Origin: a virus
DNA length: 28,953 nucleotides
Reading direction: 5' to 3' (one strand)
IMG/VR virus record: IMGVR_UViG_3300025577_000045
Span: 1-28,953 of that record
Below are positions 3,291-13,139 of this stretch, piece by piece (the first letter of the stretch is position 1; each line of letters begins with the position of its first letter). The position numbers and the translations under genes are program-made. The notes under the pieces were generated by a model that did not search any database, was not told the DNA's origin, and saw only the letters and a program-made list of their open reading frames with translations.

Positions 3291-4511
3291 TTAGTGTTGG
3301 CTAGTATCACTAGAGTTTTCGTCAGTCGAGTTTTCGTCAGTCGTGAAATTCATATCTTTGTCAATTTGATTTGTATCAATCTTGGTATAGAGATCGAGGA
3401 AAGCTTCCTTAGTCTCATCTTCGAATCGGGTGATACACATCTTAATTGCTTCAAGGCGATTGTTAAAGATTGAAAGAGCTTTAACAATGTGGCATAGTCG
3501 GCGAGTTGAGATTAATTCGTCAACGCCTTCACTTTCGTAAGTCTTACGGATAACTGCGCCCCAGCTGACGAGTTTATCAGCAAAATCATCGTGCCCTCTG
3601 ACATCGCATGAAGTCATATGCTTCTTAATAATTTTTAGTTCGACATTATATGCGGGGAAGGGCTGATCGATACTTGCTACGAATCGTTCTACGAAAGCAT
3701 CATCAATGATTTGTGCGGCAGAGTATCGTCCATCATCGGCACCCCGCCCCTTAGTATTCGCCGTTGCAATAACGTTGAACCCAGGAGCGGGGTGAACTAC
3801 GCCACCCGTTTTTTTCACCATCACCGGCTTACCTTCCAAGACGCCTTGGAGACACATGATCTTATTTGAACCTCGGTCCATTTCGTCGATCAATAGTATA
3901 CATCCAGCTTCCATGGCTTTTAGTACCGGTCCTTTTTGGAATACAGTCTCACCATTGATGAGACGAAAACCACCAATCAGATCGTCTTCATCAGTTTCTG
4001 GTGATATCTGTACTCGAACATATTCGCGCTTTGCCTTTGCGCAGGCTTGTTCAACCATCATTGTTTTCCCGTTTCCTGACATTCCACTAATGTACAGAGG
4101 GAAAAATTGTTTTGAGTCGATAATCTTCTTAATCTTTGAGAAGTCGCCCCATGAAATAAAGTTAGGATCTACCTCTGGGATATAAACATCGTCATTGGAA
4201 ACCGATTGGACCGAAGTGGCAAATTTGAAATTCTCATCAGCAGAGTTACTTTGCTGAGGTTGAGCCACCGAAGCTTTCTTTTGCGTAGGCTTAGTTAGGC
4301 AGACATTGCGCATGTCCCATTCACCTCGCTTTGGGCCGGAGTGCATAAAGGTTTCTTTGGCACTATTGTAACTATAACCGTGGGCTCTAGCGTGTGTGTA
4401 AATATCCTTCGTTTTAACGATTGGATATGTTGAGACTGCTTGTTCTAATTCTGACATTACAGTGTCATAGTTGGACTCAGGCTTCTGCGTATTTGTGGTG
4501 TCTTTTTTCAT
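3291..4511 (-). CDS. cobS: CobS-like AAA+ ATPase (MoxR type)
   Basis: A 406-residue ATPase. An N-terminal segment (residues 1-75) is followed by a linker to about 105 and a MoxR/CobS-type AAA+ core with Walker A GMSGNGKT (143-150), PETDEDDLIGGFRL (171-184), and Walker B CILLIDE (204-210). Sensor-like TANTKGRGADDGRYS and an arginine-finger region DDAFVERF follow. The tail is acidic and Ser/Thr-rich. CobS in bacteria is a cobaltochelatase subunit, but marine T4-like phages commonly carry this gene. Here it lies next to a VWA partner, the usual MoxR-VWA pairing. Remodelling of a protein complex is a safer guess than cobalamin synthesis. It has its own early promoter with a leader of about 60 nt. 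Confidence 0.88.
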   Translation of the reverse strand: MKKDTTNTQKPESNYDTVMSELEQAVSTYPIVKTKDIYTHARAHGYSYNSAKETFMHSGPKRGEWDMRNVCLTKPTQKKASVAQPQQSNSADENFKFATSVQSVSNDDVYIPEVDPNFISWGDFSKIKKIIDSKQFFPLYISGMSGNGKTMMVEQACAKAKREYVRVQISPETDEDDLIGGFRLINGETVFQKGPVLKAMEAGCILLIDEMDRGSNKIMCLQGVLEGKPVMVKKTGGVVHPAPGFNVIATANTKGRGADDGRYSAAQIIDDAFVERFVASIDQPFPAYNVELKIIKKHMTSCDVRGHDDFADKLVSWGAVIRKTYESEGVDELISTRRLCHIVKALSIFNNRLEAIKMCITRFEDETKEAFLDLYTKIDTNQIDKDMNFTTDENSTDENSSDTSQH

Positions 4512-4572
4512 AATGTAATTTGATGGTGTAATGGGAGGTACTTAGCGAATCCGTTCCCTTCCTTGTAGATAT

Positions 4573-4601
4573 ATTATAAACTAAATCTTAGTGAATGTAA
4601 A
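4573..4601 (-). promoter_or_regulatory. Early sigma-70 promoter of the cobS-like gene
   Basis: The minus strand reads TTTACA (4601-4596), a 17-nt spacer, and TATAAT (4578-4573). The sequence from the -10 box onward, TATAATATATCTACAAGGA, is identical to that of the promoter at 7048-7076, so the two transcripts should share their 5' end. Confidence 0.85.
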
Positions 4602-4645
4602 TAAAATAATGATAGAAAATGCATTTATTTTCACATTTTTTCCTA

Positions 4646-7003
4646 TTAAATCACCGTGTCAATGAATTTATTAAGGAAAATTCGGCTCTGTCGTTTAGTG
4701 GTATTAAACTTCTTAAAGGAGGTTGCCAATTTACTTCTATTCGCGGCTTTGTTAAGATCTTCAGTATCAACGGTGTCTGGCACTTGAAATTCTTCTTCAT
4801 CATTTATTTTTAAGGATTTAAGGTTATCAATAACGAAATAGGTATCATAGTTATATCCATTTTCAATAGCATAACAGTTGCTTTTTAGTTTCTTAGCTTC
4901 ATTTTTACACTTGTCAATATATTCCCACTTACGTAGATTTTTAATATGAGCCAATGCGCCGAATGAATGATTTCTGCCATTTGCCGGACTTGAAGTTAAG
5001 AAGAATCCAATCATCTTAGAGCCGGTGTCCTTCTTAATACTTTTTACAACATCAGAATATGCATTCGGGTTTTGGCGACTAATATCAACAGTATCTTTTC
5101 CTATTTTAATATATCGGTAATTTCCCCAAGGGTCTTTAGAATTTGAATACATTTGATTTTCTTCATCCTCTACTTTTGGCTCGGTAGAATGAGAGTGAGG
5201 AGTTTGGCCTTCGCCATCTGTTAAAAATACAGTTGTCATTTTTTCAACATTATGCGTTTTCCTGAAATTTTTGATAAGGCCGTGAGCCATGATTAAAGTT
5301 TCAATAAGAGGAGTGCCGCCCATCTCTTCTAATTCAGAATTCATACAGTTATGTTCCAAATATAGGTTAGTCTGATATGTTCTAGTGCCATACGGTTGAT
5401 TTATTTGAATGGATAGCTTATCATATTTATCTCCATCTGAAAATATTGCACCGCTTTGAATATATAATTCTTTTAAAGCAGTTTCATATTTAGATTTCTT
5501 TAAAGAGGAATTCATTAACTCACAAACCTCGGTAGTAAAGATATCAAGGTTATTTCCGTATTGGAAATTATTTCTAAAGAAGTCGTTTTTATTTTCGTAT
5601 TTTCTAATATACTTACCATTTTCCAAAAAGGCTCTACCGGATTTACTGGTGAAACTATAAACAGAGAACGGAATATCAACCGTCTTACAAAACATAACCA
5701 ATTGAATAGTCTGCTTAATAACATCGCTGATGCAATTACCCATGCTTCCTGAGTTGTCAATAAAAATATTCATTCCGTGGTTTTTAGAATCAGCAAGGTT
5801 GGTTACCGATTTAAAAATCTGATCATCATATTGGTAACTATGCAATTTGTTTACATTGATGGCTCCGGTTCTAGCTTGTGTAGATCTTGAATATGAATGT
5901 GCGGCTTTTCGCCTTTCAAATTCTTTACAAAGGATATTTACATTTTTCTTTGTAGAATTCTTAAACAAGGCCCACTTTTCGTGAACCATTGGATCATTCA
6001 TAATAGTATCATAATGAATACTGGCTTTACGCGCCGTGCGAACGTCATCGAGGGAGTGTACTAAATTTCCCACATTTTTTTCAGGAAATTTATTTAGGAT
6101 AGTTTCATTGGATGCCATTTCACCAAGATCCTCAAGGTGTTTATCCAATGAATCTTGAGTTTCTGATTTAAACGCTTCTGAGGTTTCTTCTTCTTTACTG
6201 TGAAGCTGTCCTCCAGAGTTTCCACCATGTGATGTATTAGTATCTGGAGATGAGTTTTTATCTTCTGAGGATTTTGAAGAGGAATCGCCATCATCATCTT
6301 CTGATTCTAAATCATCGTCACCTGATTCTGAATCGTTAGACATTTGGTTATCCTCGCCGTCATCAGAAGGCTGTTTTGCCTTTTCTTTGGGGTTTTTCTC
6401 TTCCTCTTTCTCAATAAAATCAGCAAGCTCTTGAATAACGTCCAATACATCATCATAGGTTTTACACCGGTTAACCTTATCAAATAATACGGTTTCCTCA
6501 TCGGAGAATTGGACATCAATAAGATCTCTTAATTTACCTTTAAGGTTAATACGATCAATGAATCCTAAAGCATTCACATCCTTATCTTTAATTTCAAAAA
6601 GATCGTTTTCTTTAAAATAGGAGTATCCATCATTAAAGGATTTAATAAGGCCAGGATATTTAAATTGGATCATCTTTTCAATCCTAATATCTTCAACAAT
6701 GTTGGCAATGTCAAAAGGGAGTTTTGGATAACGCTCTTTAAATTTAGTAATTCCATCCTCAGGAGTAAATAGAGCATGACCAACTTCATGGCCAACCAGC
6801 AGGTCGGAAACCTCTTTAGTATCGGTATTCCACGCAGGCAATCCAAGAACTCGATTTTTAACATCAAAATAGGCTGTCTTAAAATTGCCAACAGTCACTT
6901 GAATATCTTCAGTGGCTAATAATTTGGCAAGCTGTTTCTGAGCGTCTATATTAATAATAGTGCGGTCAGGCTTTGGTTTAATAACGTGTGGTTCTTTAAT
7001 CAT
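4646..7003 (-). CDS. cobT: CobT-like VWA protein with HExxH zinc-protease motif
   Basis: A 785-residue protein. The N-terminal part has HEVGH at residues 72-76 and NIVEDIRIE at 101-109, the pattern of a gluzincin-like metallopeptidase (H72, H76, with E104 as candidate third ligand). Residues about 198-300 form a highly acidic Ser/Asp/Glu-rich linker. The C-terminal half is a von Willebrand A domain with a full MIDAS: D416-x-S418-x-S420 in IFIDNSGSMGN, a later GGTPLIETL threonine, and VFLTDGEG. The layout resembles CobT-type proteins, which pair with CobS ATPases. It lies upstream of the cobS-like gene, each with near-identical early promoters. Function in phage is unknown; the peptidase reading is an inference from motifs. 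Confidence 0.85.
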   Translation of the reverse strand: MIKEPHVIKPKPDRTIINIDAQKQLAKLLATEDIQVTVGNFKTAYFDVKNRVLGLPAWNTDTKEVSDLLVGHEVGHALFTPEDGITKFKERYPKLPFDIANIVEDIRIEKMIQFKYPGLIKSFNDGYSYFKENDLFEIKDKDVNALGFIDRINLKGKLRDLIDVQFSDEETVLFDKVNRCKTYDDVLDVIQELADFIEKEEEKNPKEKAKQPSDDGEDNQMSNDSESGDDDLESEDDDGDSSSKSSEDKNSSPDTNTSHGGNSGGQLHSKEEETSEAFKSETQDSLDKHLEDLGEMASNETILNKFPEKNVGNLVHSLDDVRTARKASIHYDTIMNDPMVHEKWALFKNSTKKNVNILCKEFERRKAAHSYSRSTQARTGAINVNKLHSYQYDDQIFKSVTNLADSKNHGMNIFIDNSGSMGNCISDVIKQTIQLVMFCKTVDIPFSVYSFTSKSGRAFLENGKYIRKYENKNDFFRNNFQYGNNLDIFTTEVCELMNSSLKKSKYETALKELYIQSGAIFSDGDKYDKLSIQINQPYGTRTYQTNLYLEHNCMNSELEEMGGTPLIETLIMAHGLIKNFRKTHNVEKMTTVFLTDGEGQTPHSHSTEPKVEDEENQMYSNSKDPWGNYRYIKIGKDTVDISRQNPNAYSDVVKSIKKDTGSKMIGFFLTSSPANGRNHSFGALAHIKNLRKWEYIDKCKNEAKKLKSNCYAIENGYNYDTYFVIDNLKSLKINDEEEFQVPDTVDTEDLNKAANRSKLATSFKKFNTTKRQSRIFLNKFIDTVI

Positions 7004-10907: not shown

Positions 10908-11294
10908 TCAATTAAACCTATTCCTCCAATTAAATAAGGTATCATCATTAGTATCCTTATTTTTTTTATTGATTTTTTTTGGAAAGTTAGATTCAATATC
11001 CATTAAAGTATTACCTAAACAATGTTGAATGTAATTACTTAAAGTTGATTCACTATTAACTGATGTTTCAGTTTCAATAATCTTATCATATAAAGTTATT
11101 ATTGATGTATTCATTATTGAATCTTGATGTATGGGAACCATCCCTTCGGGATTAGAAGGGTCCATTAAAAATACATTTTCTAATTCAACTCCAATATCCG
11201 ATACATTAATAAGTTCTCCAATTAAGACTCTTCCAGAAATAGTAGTAAAGATTCTAACATCAAGTTTGTTTGATATGTCGTTATTGTATTTCAT
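10908..11294 (-). CDS. Unknown protein with a possible Sm-like N-terminal domain
   Basis: A 128-residue protein not securely recognised. Residues 10-45 (DVRIFTTISGRVLIGELINV followed by GVELENVFLM) have the strand-turn-strand pattern of Sm/Hfq-like barrels, and a second stretch near 70 (NTSIITLYDKIIE) could complete it. The C-terminal part is basic and Asn-rich. It overlaps the end of the uvsW C-terminal piece by 14 bases and precedes gene 55. The fold assignment is by eye only. Confidence 0.75.
   Translation of the reverse strand: MKYNNDISNKLDVRIFTTISGRVLIGELINVSDIGVELENVFLMDPSNPEGMVPIHQDSIMNTSIITLYDKIIETETSVNSESTLSNYIQHCLGNTLMDIESNFPKKINKKNKDTNDDTLFNWRNRFN
10932..10967 (+). terminator. Possible plus-strand terminator of an antisense RNA
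   Basis: The plus strand has AAATAAGG (10932-10939) pairing with CCTTATTT (10955-10962), then further T. It sits about 50 bases downstream of the plus-strand promoter. The stem is AU-rich, and the T-run is also explained by Lys codons of the opposing gene. Confidence 0.25.
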
Positions 11295-11616
11295 CTAAAC
11301 TTAATGGTATTTCGAAGATCTTGTATTTGAATCCCTCTTTATTATATATACGGATTCTTTCCTGAGCATGTTTAAACGTATAGTTTTTCTTTTTACGCCA
11401 ACTAAGGTTATCAGAAATATCAAATACAGTAGTTTTTCTTCCATCATCTGATTTTCTCAATCCACGACCAATACTTTGAAGAACTTTAATTTGAGATTTT
11501 GTTGGACTAGCGAATATAATATTATGTAAGTTCTTAATATTAATTCCTGTTGAAAACACACCAGTACTTGCCACAATAATTGCTCCGGTGGTATTTGTTA
11601 CTTTATCTGGTTTCAT
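11281..11616 (-). pseudogene. uvsW: UvsW helicase, C-terminal piece
   Basis: This 111-residue frame contains the end of UvsW: motif V region GAIIVASTGVFSTGINI (11-27), FASPTKSQIKVLQ, and motif VI QSIGRGLRK (47-55), followed by the usual tail. From residue 9 (TTGAII...) it continues the homology that stops at residue 403 of the N-terminal piece; 403 plus 103 residues equals 506, against 503 in T4 UvsW. Residues 1-8 belong to the insertion. It is in a different frame from the N-terminal piece, so one product needs splicing, frameshifting, or is not made. Confidence 0.85.
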
Positions 11617-11930
11617 ATGAATTGTTTTCTTTTTTTAATATTAATCTTTTTCTATATTCTGAATAACTTATCTTATCTAAATCATTCATTCCTTCATTAT
11701 TAAAATCTATGTCCTTCTTATTATAACCCTCCCAGGTACACCAGAACATCCAAGTCTTTTTACTTTTATATTCCCGCTTCACGCCATCGAGCCATTACCC
11801 AATTTTCTAATACATCATCATCTATTGTTATTTCACACGCTAATTTTTCAGATCCATCTGTTAATGGAACTTTTACGTTTTGCCCGACAGTGATCTTTTT
11901 TAAACCAAATTTCATTGTTGTTGTTAAGGG
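11593..11930 (-). other. 338-base insertion interrupting uvsW
   Basis: Exon-like homology ends with GATACTAAT (last base 11931) and resumes with ACCACCGGAGCA (first base 11592). The insertion is 338 bases, not a multiple of three. Its reading frame changes twice: it runs open from the uvsW frame for 54 codons, then a 59-codon frame, then the frame of the C-terminal piece. The flanks share a degenerate ACTAAT/ACAAAT. I saw no LAGLIDADG, HNH or GIY-YIG motif and no obvious group I intron core. Identity unknown: intron, decayed mobile element, or replaced segment. Confidence 0.65.
11603..11782 (-). CDS. Small unknown ORF inside the uvsW insertion (GTG start)
   Basis: A 59-codon frame starting with GTG overlaps the end of the uvsW N-terminal piece by 17 bases and ends just inside the C-terminal piece. 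It reads VKREYKSKKTWMFWCTWEGY and continues with an acidic then basic stretch ending in SYETR. The composition is protein-like (several Trp, charged helices), but no family is recognised. It may be the out-of-frame continuation of the 54 foreign residues that end the N-terminal piece. Confidence 0.3.
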   Translation of the reverse strand: MKREYKSKKTWMFWCTWEGYNKKDIDFNNEGMNDLDKISYSEYRKRLILKKENNSYETR

Positions 11931-13139
11931 ATTAGTATCAACAATACTTCGAATGTTTTCTCTGTCATCCGCTTTTACTTCTCCACTAACATAAAAGATA
12001 TTATCTTTATCATCTGCGCTGTCTTGAATCATTTTAAACAAAGGTTTACCATGTTTCTTAACGAGATTAAAAAGAACAAGTGTATTACCATTTTGATCAA
12101 GCGCTAACTTTGATATAAATTTATTTCGGTTTGGGTGTTCAACAATGGTTGCAATTTCACTTTGATAATCCATTTTAACAACTGCTTTCTTTAGAGCATC
12201 ATCATGGTTGCATACAATACATTTAATTTCAAGATCAGCGAGTGTCTTTGAATCAATTAATTTCTTAGTTGAAATTACGTTAAACGTTGGACCAAAGTTT
12301 CCAATTAAAACCAATTCATTACAAAGACTTCCATCAAGAGTTCCAGTAGTACCAATTCTATAAGGCGCATTAACTAACATCCCCATAATCTTATTAAGAC
12401 TCTTGGCTTTAAAGAGGTGCGCTTCGTCTCCAATGATCATCCCATATTGTTGGAACCATTCAGGCCGAAGGTTTATAGCGCTTTGCCATGTTGAAATAAT
12501 AACACGAGCATCAAAGTTTTCTTTTTCTTTACCAGAATATATTTTATGTATTTCGAGATCAGCATCAAAGGAATCATCGTGTGAACTATAATCGGCAAAG
12601 TCTTTACTCATTTGTTCAACCAATGAAGTAGTTGGAACAATGATTAAAACATTATCATCATGATTTTCTATATACCATTTGATATACATGTAAATTATTA
12701 AACTCTTACCAGAACCAGTTGGTGAAACAATTAATGATCTGCCCTCAGTAATTCCATGAATAAATGCGTCATACTGATAATCACGAAGCTCAATTTTTTT
12801 TCCTCCAGCTCTTAGCTCTTGAGAATTTGCAAATTTATCAAGGTAATCTTTATCTATAACCTCTTTGTTTTTAAGAGTAGAGCAAAGGTTAATTCCATAT
12901 CCACTATCCTTTGCAAAACTAAGTGTCTTTGGTAATAAACCATATGGCAAAGTATTATTGCGCATATTCAGTAAACGAATTTTTCCATCCCACATCTTAT
13001 TTCTGTAACTTGGCATAAATTTATACCCGTCAACATAAAAAGTATAATGCTCGCTAAGATCCATCATAGCACCAGAATCATCCGACTTAATATGAATTAA
13101 GGTTTCATCTACATGTGATATGTCATACGTACTACTCAT
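11766..13139 (-). pseudogene. uvsW: UvsW helicase, N-terminal piece with foreign tail
   Basis: A 457-residue frame. Residues 1-403 are UvsW, the RNA-DNA/branched-DNA helicase that acts late in T4 to unwind R-loops and recombination intermediates: N-terminal DNA-binding domain (YTFYVDGYKFMPSYRNKMWDG), Walker A SPTGSGKS (139-146), DEAH box (238-241), TTGT (264-267), and the second RecA domain up to YVSGEVKADDRENIRSIVDTN. Residues 404-457 (PLTTTMKFGLKK... to REAGI) are not UvsW-like and replace motifs V and VI, which follow downstream in another frame. On its own this piece should lack helicase activity. It starts right after uvsY. Confidence 0.88.

Follow-up and report, generated by a model that had tools for sequence, protein, structure and literature searches.

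The uvsW gene in the 28,953-nucleotide stretch of viral DNA analysed here (hereafter the window), which comes from a T4-related virus, is genuinely split. We judge, at a probability of roughly two in three, that the split goes back to a homing cassette that resembles a split intein, in which splicing has been lost and the docking parts have been kept. UvsW probably works as two docking pieces and not as one spliced protein, a reading that rests on the analysis of sequences and predicted structures set out below.

uvsW in two pieces

The first-pass annotation had described uvsW as interrupted by about 338 bases, with its halves in different reading frames. The ORFs of the window confirm this, and the coordinates, frames and sizes given there all agree with our ORF check. 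The gene lies on the minus strand and comprises the following features:

13139..11766, minus strand: uvsW first-half ORF with its tail, 457 aa; UvsW up to ...RSIVDTN (base 11931), then 54 codons
11931..13139, minus strand: uvsW first half, codons 1-403; UvsW N domain, RecA domain 1 and RecA domain 2 until just before motif V
11766..11930, minus strand: tail on the first half, codons 404-457 and stop
11782..11603, minus strand: middle frame, 59 aa, GTG start; overlaps the ends of both halves
11616..11281, minus strand: second-half ORF, 111 aa, ATG start; begins MKPDKVTN
11593..11616, minus strand: N-terminal tail of the second half, MKPDKVTN; new start codon and conserved motif
11281..11592, minus strand: uvsW second half; TTGAIIVAS from base 11592, helicase motifs V and VI to the C terminus

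Both halves have UvsW or helicase matches in Pfam and PHROGs. The first is matched by the Pfam families UvsW_N, ResIII and DEAD, and the top structural matches of its AlphaFold model are T4 UvsW (1rif/2oca); the second is matched by Pfam Helicase_C and by the DNA helicase families phrog_9690/16/17901. Two ORFs with their own stop and start here replace one gene that is uncut in relatives, as in genes in pieces. Elsewhere in the window (3291-7003), two large ORFs resemble what we take to be the cyanophage pair of a CobS/CobT-type ATPase and a VWA protein.

An assembly or sequencing error is ruled out as the origin of the split, because nine other IMG/VR contigs from nine data sets, each with a different metagenome id, carry the same 338 bases and the same frames; over the 820 bases aligned, substitutions are the sole differences among these contigs. 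With the second half as query at least 599 relatives were found, and 79 of the best 80 compared read through the site without a stop, the remaining one (locus L019) belonging to the same virus group as the window.

Conserved tails at a single site

The 54 codons that follow the first half had been reported as unrecognised, and this no longer holds, as the first uvsW ORF of Dickeya and Vibrio phages ends in a matching sequence (41-48% identity, E 4e-4 to 3e-3). Across the family the tail is 45-50 codons long and follows the pattern FG..I.V....VPL..G..K.A..IT.DDDV...W, with F, G, L, K, A, T, D and D invariant in 14 tail rows; outside the window's own group, identity to the window's tail is 28-44%. 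In the relatives opened these residues form a tail that a stop codon closes, within a gene split in the same way, and are no part of a normal in-frame UvsW domain.

A tblastn search of 50,697 phage records with the window tail returned 79 records (58 Vibrio, 19 Dickeya and 2 chance), and phages of Bifidobacterium (E 5-6) and of Gordonia (E 9) were discarded as chance matches. The tail of Dickeya phage LIMEstone1 reached 77 records (58 Vibrio and 19 Dickeya), and that of locus L116 reached Vibrio records alone (E 0.3-3). All five phages opened (K469, D506, LIMEstone1, PP35 and Coodle) have the tail match at the end of the first of two uvsW ORFs. A first profile scan of IMG/VR added L109-L113, L115 and L116, the next one L118, L127, L128-L131, L132/L133, L135/L139, L140, L142/L144-L146 and L143, and a further viral scan gave 27 loci, none on a new contig. 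The tail is therewith present in about ten further IMG/VR lineages (L110, L115, L116, L118, L127, L128, L132/L133, L135/L139, L140, L142 and L143), the contigs of L118 and L127 yielding no second half. Among all ORFs of the loci, the tail profile matched 83 at E<=1e-4, one per locus and all of them split uvsW, with zero matches between E 1e-4 and 1. The site is identical in all loci read, where every tail terminates a uvsW first half. The tail is absent from the split DNA polymerase pieces of LIMEstone1, from 50 kb of phage CP21 and from the other ORFs of the loci, and a search of bacterial genomes gave 7 pattern matches and no relative. The "putative split helicase" of Serratia phage WSPA was set aside, being a full-length 499-aa uvsW with a separate small ORF, different from the split described here.

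The second half has its own ATG and begins with the motif MKP[T/S/D]x[V/I], also written M-[KR]-P-[TSD]-x-[VI]. Searched as M.?[KR]P[TSD].[VI], the motif is present in 14 of 14 second halves compared, the same 14, some of them identical, from which it was drawn, against 0 of 876 other ORF starts, 18 of which begin MKP yet miss the full motif. The start reads MKPTK in phages K469, D506, LIMEstone1, PP35 and Coodle and MKPDK in the window. The start of L110, MKPTKIE, resembles MKVTKIE, with which a stretch read by eye as an intein C-fragment begins, adjacent to the split phoH of CP21; the likeness is short and suggestive only. In this Campylobacter phage (L168, 33878-36740) phoH is itself in pieces, which, also read by eye, follow one another as a first half ending in block A, a block B ORF, a pair of TnsA-like ORFs, an ORF for an intein C-fragment and finally the C half.

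The region between the halves

The middle frame of the window occupies the position where relatives have a homing endonuclease ORF, which was found in ten related loci tested. An HNH-type ORF follows the first half in L116, L127, L132, L135, L142 and LIMEstone1, a phrog_314 homing ORF in L110 and L128, and a GIY-YIG ORF in L115 and L118, that of L118 being cut by the contig end and matching Pfam SegE_GIY-YIG. The T4 endonuclease segE is given uvsW as its target in a passage of a published account (PMC2988022). Vibrio phages K469 and D506 have no endonuclease at this place, and their stop and start overlap as ATGA (4 bases). L140 has retained the tail and the start, with most of the endonuclease deleted and a remnant left, and is the closest parallel to the window.

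Some loci hold additional elements. A 281-codon ORF with weak structural-protein matches comes after the uvsW first half in L133 and in L132 (4189-5034 in each), and in L132 the HNH endonuclease ORF comes after it. The uvsW of L115 (493-3520) contains three elements in one gene, the cassette included: a LAGLIDADG-type intein sits in the Walker A motif, and the DECH motif houses a split intein that has an endonuclease ORF of its own.

The last residues of the middle frame, ...SYETR*, overlap the ATGAAACC with which the second half starts, and comparable ends are found in the endonuclease ORFs of L110 (...NETN*), L128 (NETR*), L135 (NETR*) and L142 (NETK*). Described earlier as unrecognised, the 59-codon frame keeps that status, as searches returned no known relatives beyond the same virus group: outside this group the phage search gave only E 9, and the PHROGs search gave, at E 0.12, one family without an assigned function. 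The loci yielded three weak matches (E 0.02-0.2), which were rejected, being opposite-strand short frames or an unrelated ORF. A homing endonuclease is absent from the split of the window, and the 59-codon frame has no homology to any endonuclease. Because of this absence the window is not a full genes-in-pieces member but a variant of the homing-endonuclease split gene without the endonuclease. The middle frame may have replaced the lost endonuclease, of which it is a possible remnant.

The sequence TATAAATA, which we take to be the T4 late promoter motif, is present in 7 of the 12 intervals examined (L110, L115, L128, L132, L135, L142 and L143), mostly just upstream of the endonuclease start. 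Across the whole window it occurs six times on the minus strand and never on the plus strand, with no occurrence in uvsW, a bias in line with late promoters for minus-strand genes.

Horizontal movement of the cassette

Trees, converted flanks and synonymous divergence show that the tail and the endonuclease move horizontally, and the tail is common to elements with different endonucleases. A tree built from the first exon (window residues 8-380) requires 8 changes of the split label, no fewer than 6 of which are forced by starred branches, and rejects a single split clade (P = 1.8e-48); this tree was made by a quick method and contains long branches, among them L127 and L132, whose placement is unsure. 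It holds 77 rows, 14 of them split, which remain from 91 after removal of 14 near-copies (13 uncut and 1 split), and L115 was left out since its first half is broken up by inteins.

LIMEstone1 is nested within uncut Ackermannviridae on this tree. Its relative SKML-39 is uncut, and the two are 90% identical up to the site. In successive 30-base segments the two share 22-30 of 30 bases up to base 1140 and 23 at 1141-1170, followed by 15 and 13; beyond the insert they share 12, 23 and 14 of 30, and then 27-30. The short divergent tract flanking the LIMEstone1 insert is a converted tract, as homing leaves.

Synonymous and nonsynonymous divergence was calculated by the Nei-Gojobori method in a script. 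For L142 and L143, the one pair for which the endonuclease was measured, dS reaches 1.23 for the first exon and 1.16 for the last one but stays at 0.04 for the tail and 0.08 for the endonuclease. The pair L135 and L140 shows the same pattern (first exon 1.75, last exon 1.37, tail 0.12), and between L135, which has an HNH ORF, and L128, which has a phrog_314 ORF, the tail dS is 0.43 while the first exon is saturated. In alignments, identity climbs over about 100 bases before the tail and drops in motif V. The contrasts in dS and the converted flanks therefore indicate that tail and endonuclease move together, flank conversion and mobility being seen in relatives of the window.

Predicted structure of the tail and a proposed docking mechanism

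The tail is predicted to be a folded unit. The AlphaFold model of the first half has a pLDDT of 83.9, with residues 411-450 at 81-90 and residues 401-410 at 62, and the tail modelled alone has a pLDDT of 88.5, with four strands and one helix. In Foldseek the first PDB match to the tail model is the VidaL intein (E 0.77, prob 0.94), below which the 41 matches hold other inteins and some unrelated chains; in a viral library no match has E below 0.001, and the first 50 rows include intein- and Hint-named proteins together with others. When 120 chains ranked by Foldseek were compared by VIA-align, 23 reached Z>=2, and the 21 entries listed (Z 2.5-4.8) are all inteins or BIL/Hint domains, the best being VidaL (Z 4.8, rmsd 3.1 over 52 residues), although a Z under 8 can reflect a common arrangement.

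This reservation bears on the principal competing explanation, which we regard as unlikely but worth serious weight, namely that uvsW is a plain homing-endonuclease split gene, like nrdA of Aeh1, whose tail was acquired once, is unrelated to inteins and has been kept because it covers the edge laid bare where the RecA domain is broken. The evidence of mobility and conservation fits this explanation equally well, and it agrees with the sequence searches, which find no link between the tail and inteins: nothing exceeds the cut-off in Pfam, NCBIfam or PHROGs, searches of PDB sequences gave nothing convincing (the best matches, E 0.035, 0.071 and 0.36, are unrelated families), and the tail profile matches the real intein ORF of L115 at E 6, within background. 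Against it stand the list of 21 structural matches, all of them inteins or Hint domains, and the block B register found by hhalign, which aligned the tail with five intein sequences (P = 9e-4, probability 22%), with 1 of 300 column shuffles scoring as high and the reversed profile lower. At another place in its uvsW, moreover, L115 has a real split intein, accompanied by an endonuclease ORF, and therefore a source of intein sequence is at hand.

The elements needed for splicing are missing. Between exon and tail there is no room for block A and no conserved Cys or Ser in 14 rows; at the columns that hhalign aligns with the TxxH of block B, His is found in 0 and Thr in 1 of 14 tails; and the second halves read have no C-terminal HN before Cys, Ser or Thr, the exon beginning only a few residues after MKPxxV. 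The tail is predicted, from the models, to be intein- or Hint-like without splicing residues, and we hold a Hint ancestry with moderate confidence. The first-half tails keep an invariant acidic pair and the second-half tails keep K/R-P. In split inteins, mutual recognition involves an N-fragment with an anionic region and a C-fragment that is cationic, as stated in a passage of PMC11766414.

Under the reading that we prefer, a homing cassette would have invaded a fixed site in uvsW just before helicase motif V. In relatives this cassette consists of an in-frame tail of 45-50 codons with a stop, an endonuclease ORF and a new ATG with an MKPxxV tail, and in the window virus no endonuclease is left and the two tails remain. 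UvsW would be made as two polypeptides from overlapping frames and reassembled non-covalently. The first tail resembles the later part of an intein N-fragment (the block B region), and its counterpart on the second half resembles the first strand of an intein C-fragment. Because both lack their catalytic ends, such a pair could not splice by a known route; most likely it would act as a docking clasp between the two portions of RecA domain 2. On the simplest account, a split intein would have kept its docking parts and lost its catalytic ends, leaving a permanent two-piece enzyme, in which we infer that the halves assemble non-covalently and that the pair is active.

Introns and inteins spare the host gene through splicing. 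The uvsW cassette family appears to spare its host by docking, with the element bringing the glue for a two-piece protein. More generally, and at somewhat less than even odds, it may represent a mobile element that is neither intron nor intein, one that homes into a gene, leaves it split for good and protects its host with a splicing-dead, truncated split intein as a non-covalent clasp (an acidic tail with an invariant DD and a basic MKPxxV tail), with HNH or GIY-YIG endonucleases exchanged as cargo or lost. If this is true, split inteins can end up as permanent assembly domains. The tails could also serve as small, spontaneously pairing protein tags, and LIMEstone1 and the Vibrio phages provide cultured test cases. 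The record annotations "helicase, helicase", "putative intron" and "hypothetical protein" mask the split uvsW.

Integrity of the halves and rival readings of the insert

Both exons are under purifying selection in other split lineages, with dN/dS of 0.03-0.16 while split in pairs with measurable dS above 1. In the Vibrio phages without an endonuclease the tail has been kept (dN 0.25, dS saturated) and evolves like its gene; the tail of L142 and L143 has 3 changes (dN/dS 0.46). The window and L108 give a dN/dS of 0.14 for the first exon, 0.27 for the tail (from 4 changes) and 0.50 for the second half (from 6 changes), and the middle region of the window group has 2 changes in 149 bases, too few for selection in the window's own group to be more than hardly measurable.

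A further frame break is present in the second halves of four loci, right after MKP...VAS(Y/S) or ATY, in the form of a stop codon after which the exon resumes in a different frame (L142 3306-3360, L143 5138-5195, L132 6043-6110 and L115 4932-5030), and L116 has a one-base frame shift slightly later (5043-5165). L142 and L143 share the break despite many synonymous differences in their downstream exons, and ribosomes could start anew in L142 at a GTG that overlaps the TGA. Reinitiation, frameshifting or damage may be responsible. In the four loci the break comes behind a strong hairpin, with a z score from single-base shuffles of -2.3 to -3.1, against -1.5 in L116, and the same test gives -3.6 for LIMEstone1, which is unbroken, and -1.8 for L110; because LIMEstone1 folds strongly too, a hairpin alone is no marker of the break. 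The window has no such break, and the breaks of L115, L116, L132, L142 and L143 are unexplained by a simple two-piece model.

These five broken lineages, together with the dN/dS of 0.50 from 6 changes in the second half of the window group, are what a decaying pseudogene could produce. We consider it very improbable that uvsW is one in these viruses, as purifying selection acts on both exons of other split lineages, the same architecture recurs in about ten lineages, and the helicase motifs are retained in both halves of the window.

Of the earlier proposals for the insert, namely a small intron, an intein or homing element in decay, and a split gene with assembling products, the last two are best taken in combination. 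Removal at the RNA level, by a small group I or II or other intron, has still less to recommend it than a pseudogene, even though the insert length is not a multiple of three and the LIMEstone paper, in its passage on I-LimI, gives this as a putative intron in uvsW (PMC3296691). At the gathering score no Rfam family was found anywhere in the window, and at E<=10 the region 11400-12100 gave two chance matches only, with no plausible group I or II catalytic core. An intron is not supported, because the interrupting codons are conserved as protein across lineages, in the frame of the first half and with their own stop, and because the second half has a conserved start of its own; in K469 and D506, besides, nothing lies between stop and start. 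The least probable explanation is an active split intein ligating the halves by protein trans-splicing, for which speak the order of N-half, endonuclease and C-half, as in fractured genes with split inteins, and the intein-like fold of the tail, but which would require the block A, junction Cys or Ser, TxxH His and terminal HN residues that are missing here.

Comparison with known systems

Dickeya phage LIMEstone1 (NC_019925) resembles the window in the gene, the site, a related tail and a second half that starts MKPTKI, and differs from it in that the endonuclease ORF I-LimI still lies between the halves. I-LimI is an HNH endonuclease in the record and by PHROGs, and it is listed as GIY-YIG in a table of the LIMEstone paper (PMC3296691). 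The passages of that account which speak of a putative intron make no mention of a conserved tail or a split product (PMC3296691). Vibrio phages of the K469 and D506 type, for which 58 records matched and two were opened, share with the window a related tail, the site and a similar start (MKPTKV); they have no endonuclease between the halves, their stop and start overlap by 4 bases, and their adjacent ORFs are annotated as two "DNA helicase" genes.

Insertion of a homing endonuclease (mobE) in nrdA of Aeromonas phage Aeh1 results in two polypeptides that assemble, and the products of the split gene 43 of phages 25 and 44RR co-purify, according to passages of one account (PMC2988022). As in the uvsW family, a critical gene is split in these systems by the insertion of a homing endonuclease. 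They are single cases, whereas the uvsW family combines one tail family and one site with different endonuclease families. Among the open-access titles and abstract openings listed on uvsW, split genes and split or degenerate inteins with homing endonucleases, no description of the conserved tail or of a docking split intein was found. Fractured genes with split inteins were reportedly described by Dassa and colleagues in 2009. The uvsW family differs from these in the absence of splicing residues and in its far shorter tails, and covalent ligation is not expected of it, but it shares with them a first half with an intein-like tail, a free endonuclease ORF and a short, intein-like start of the second half.
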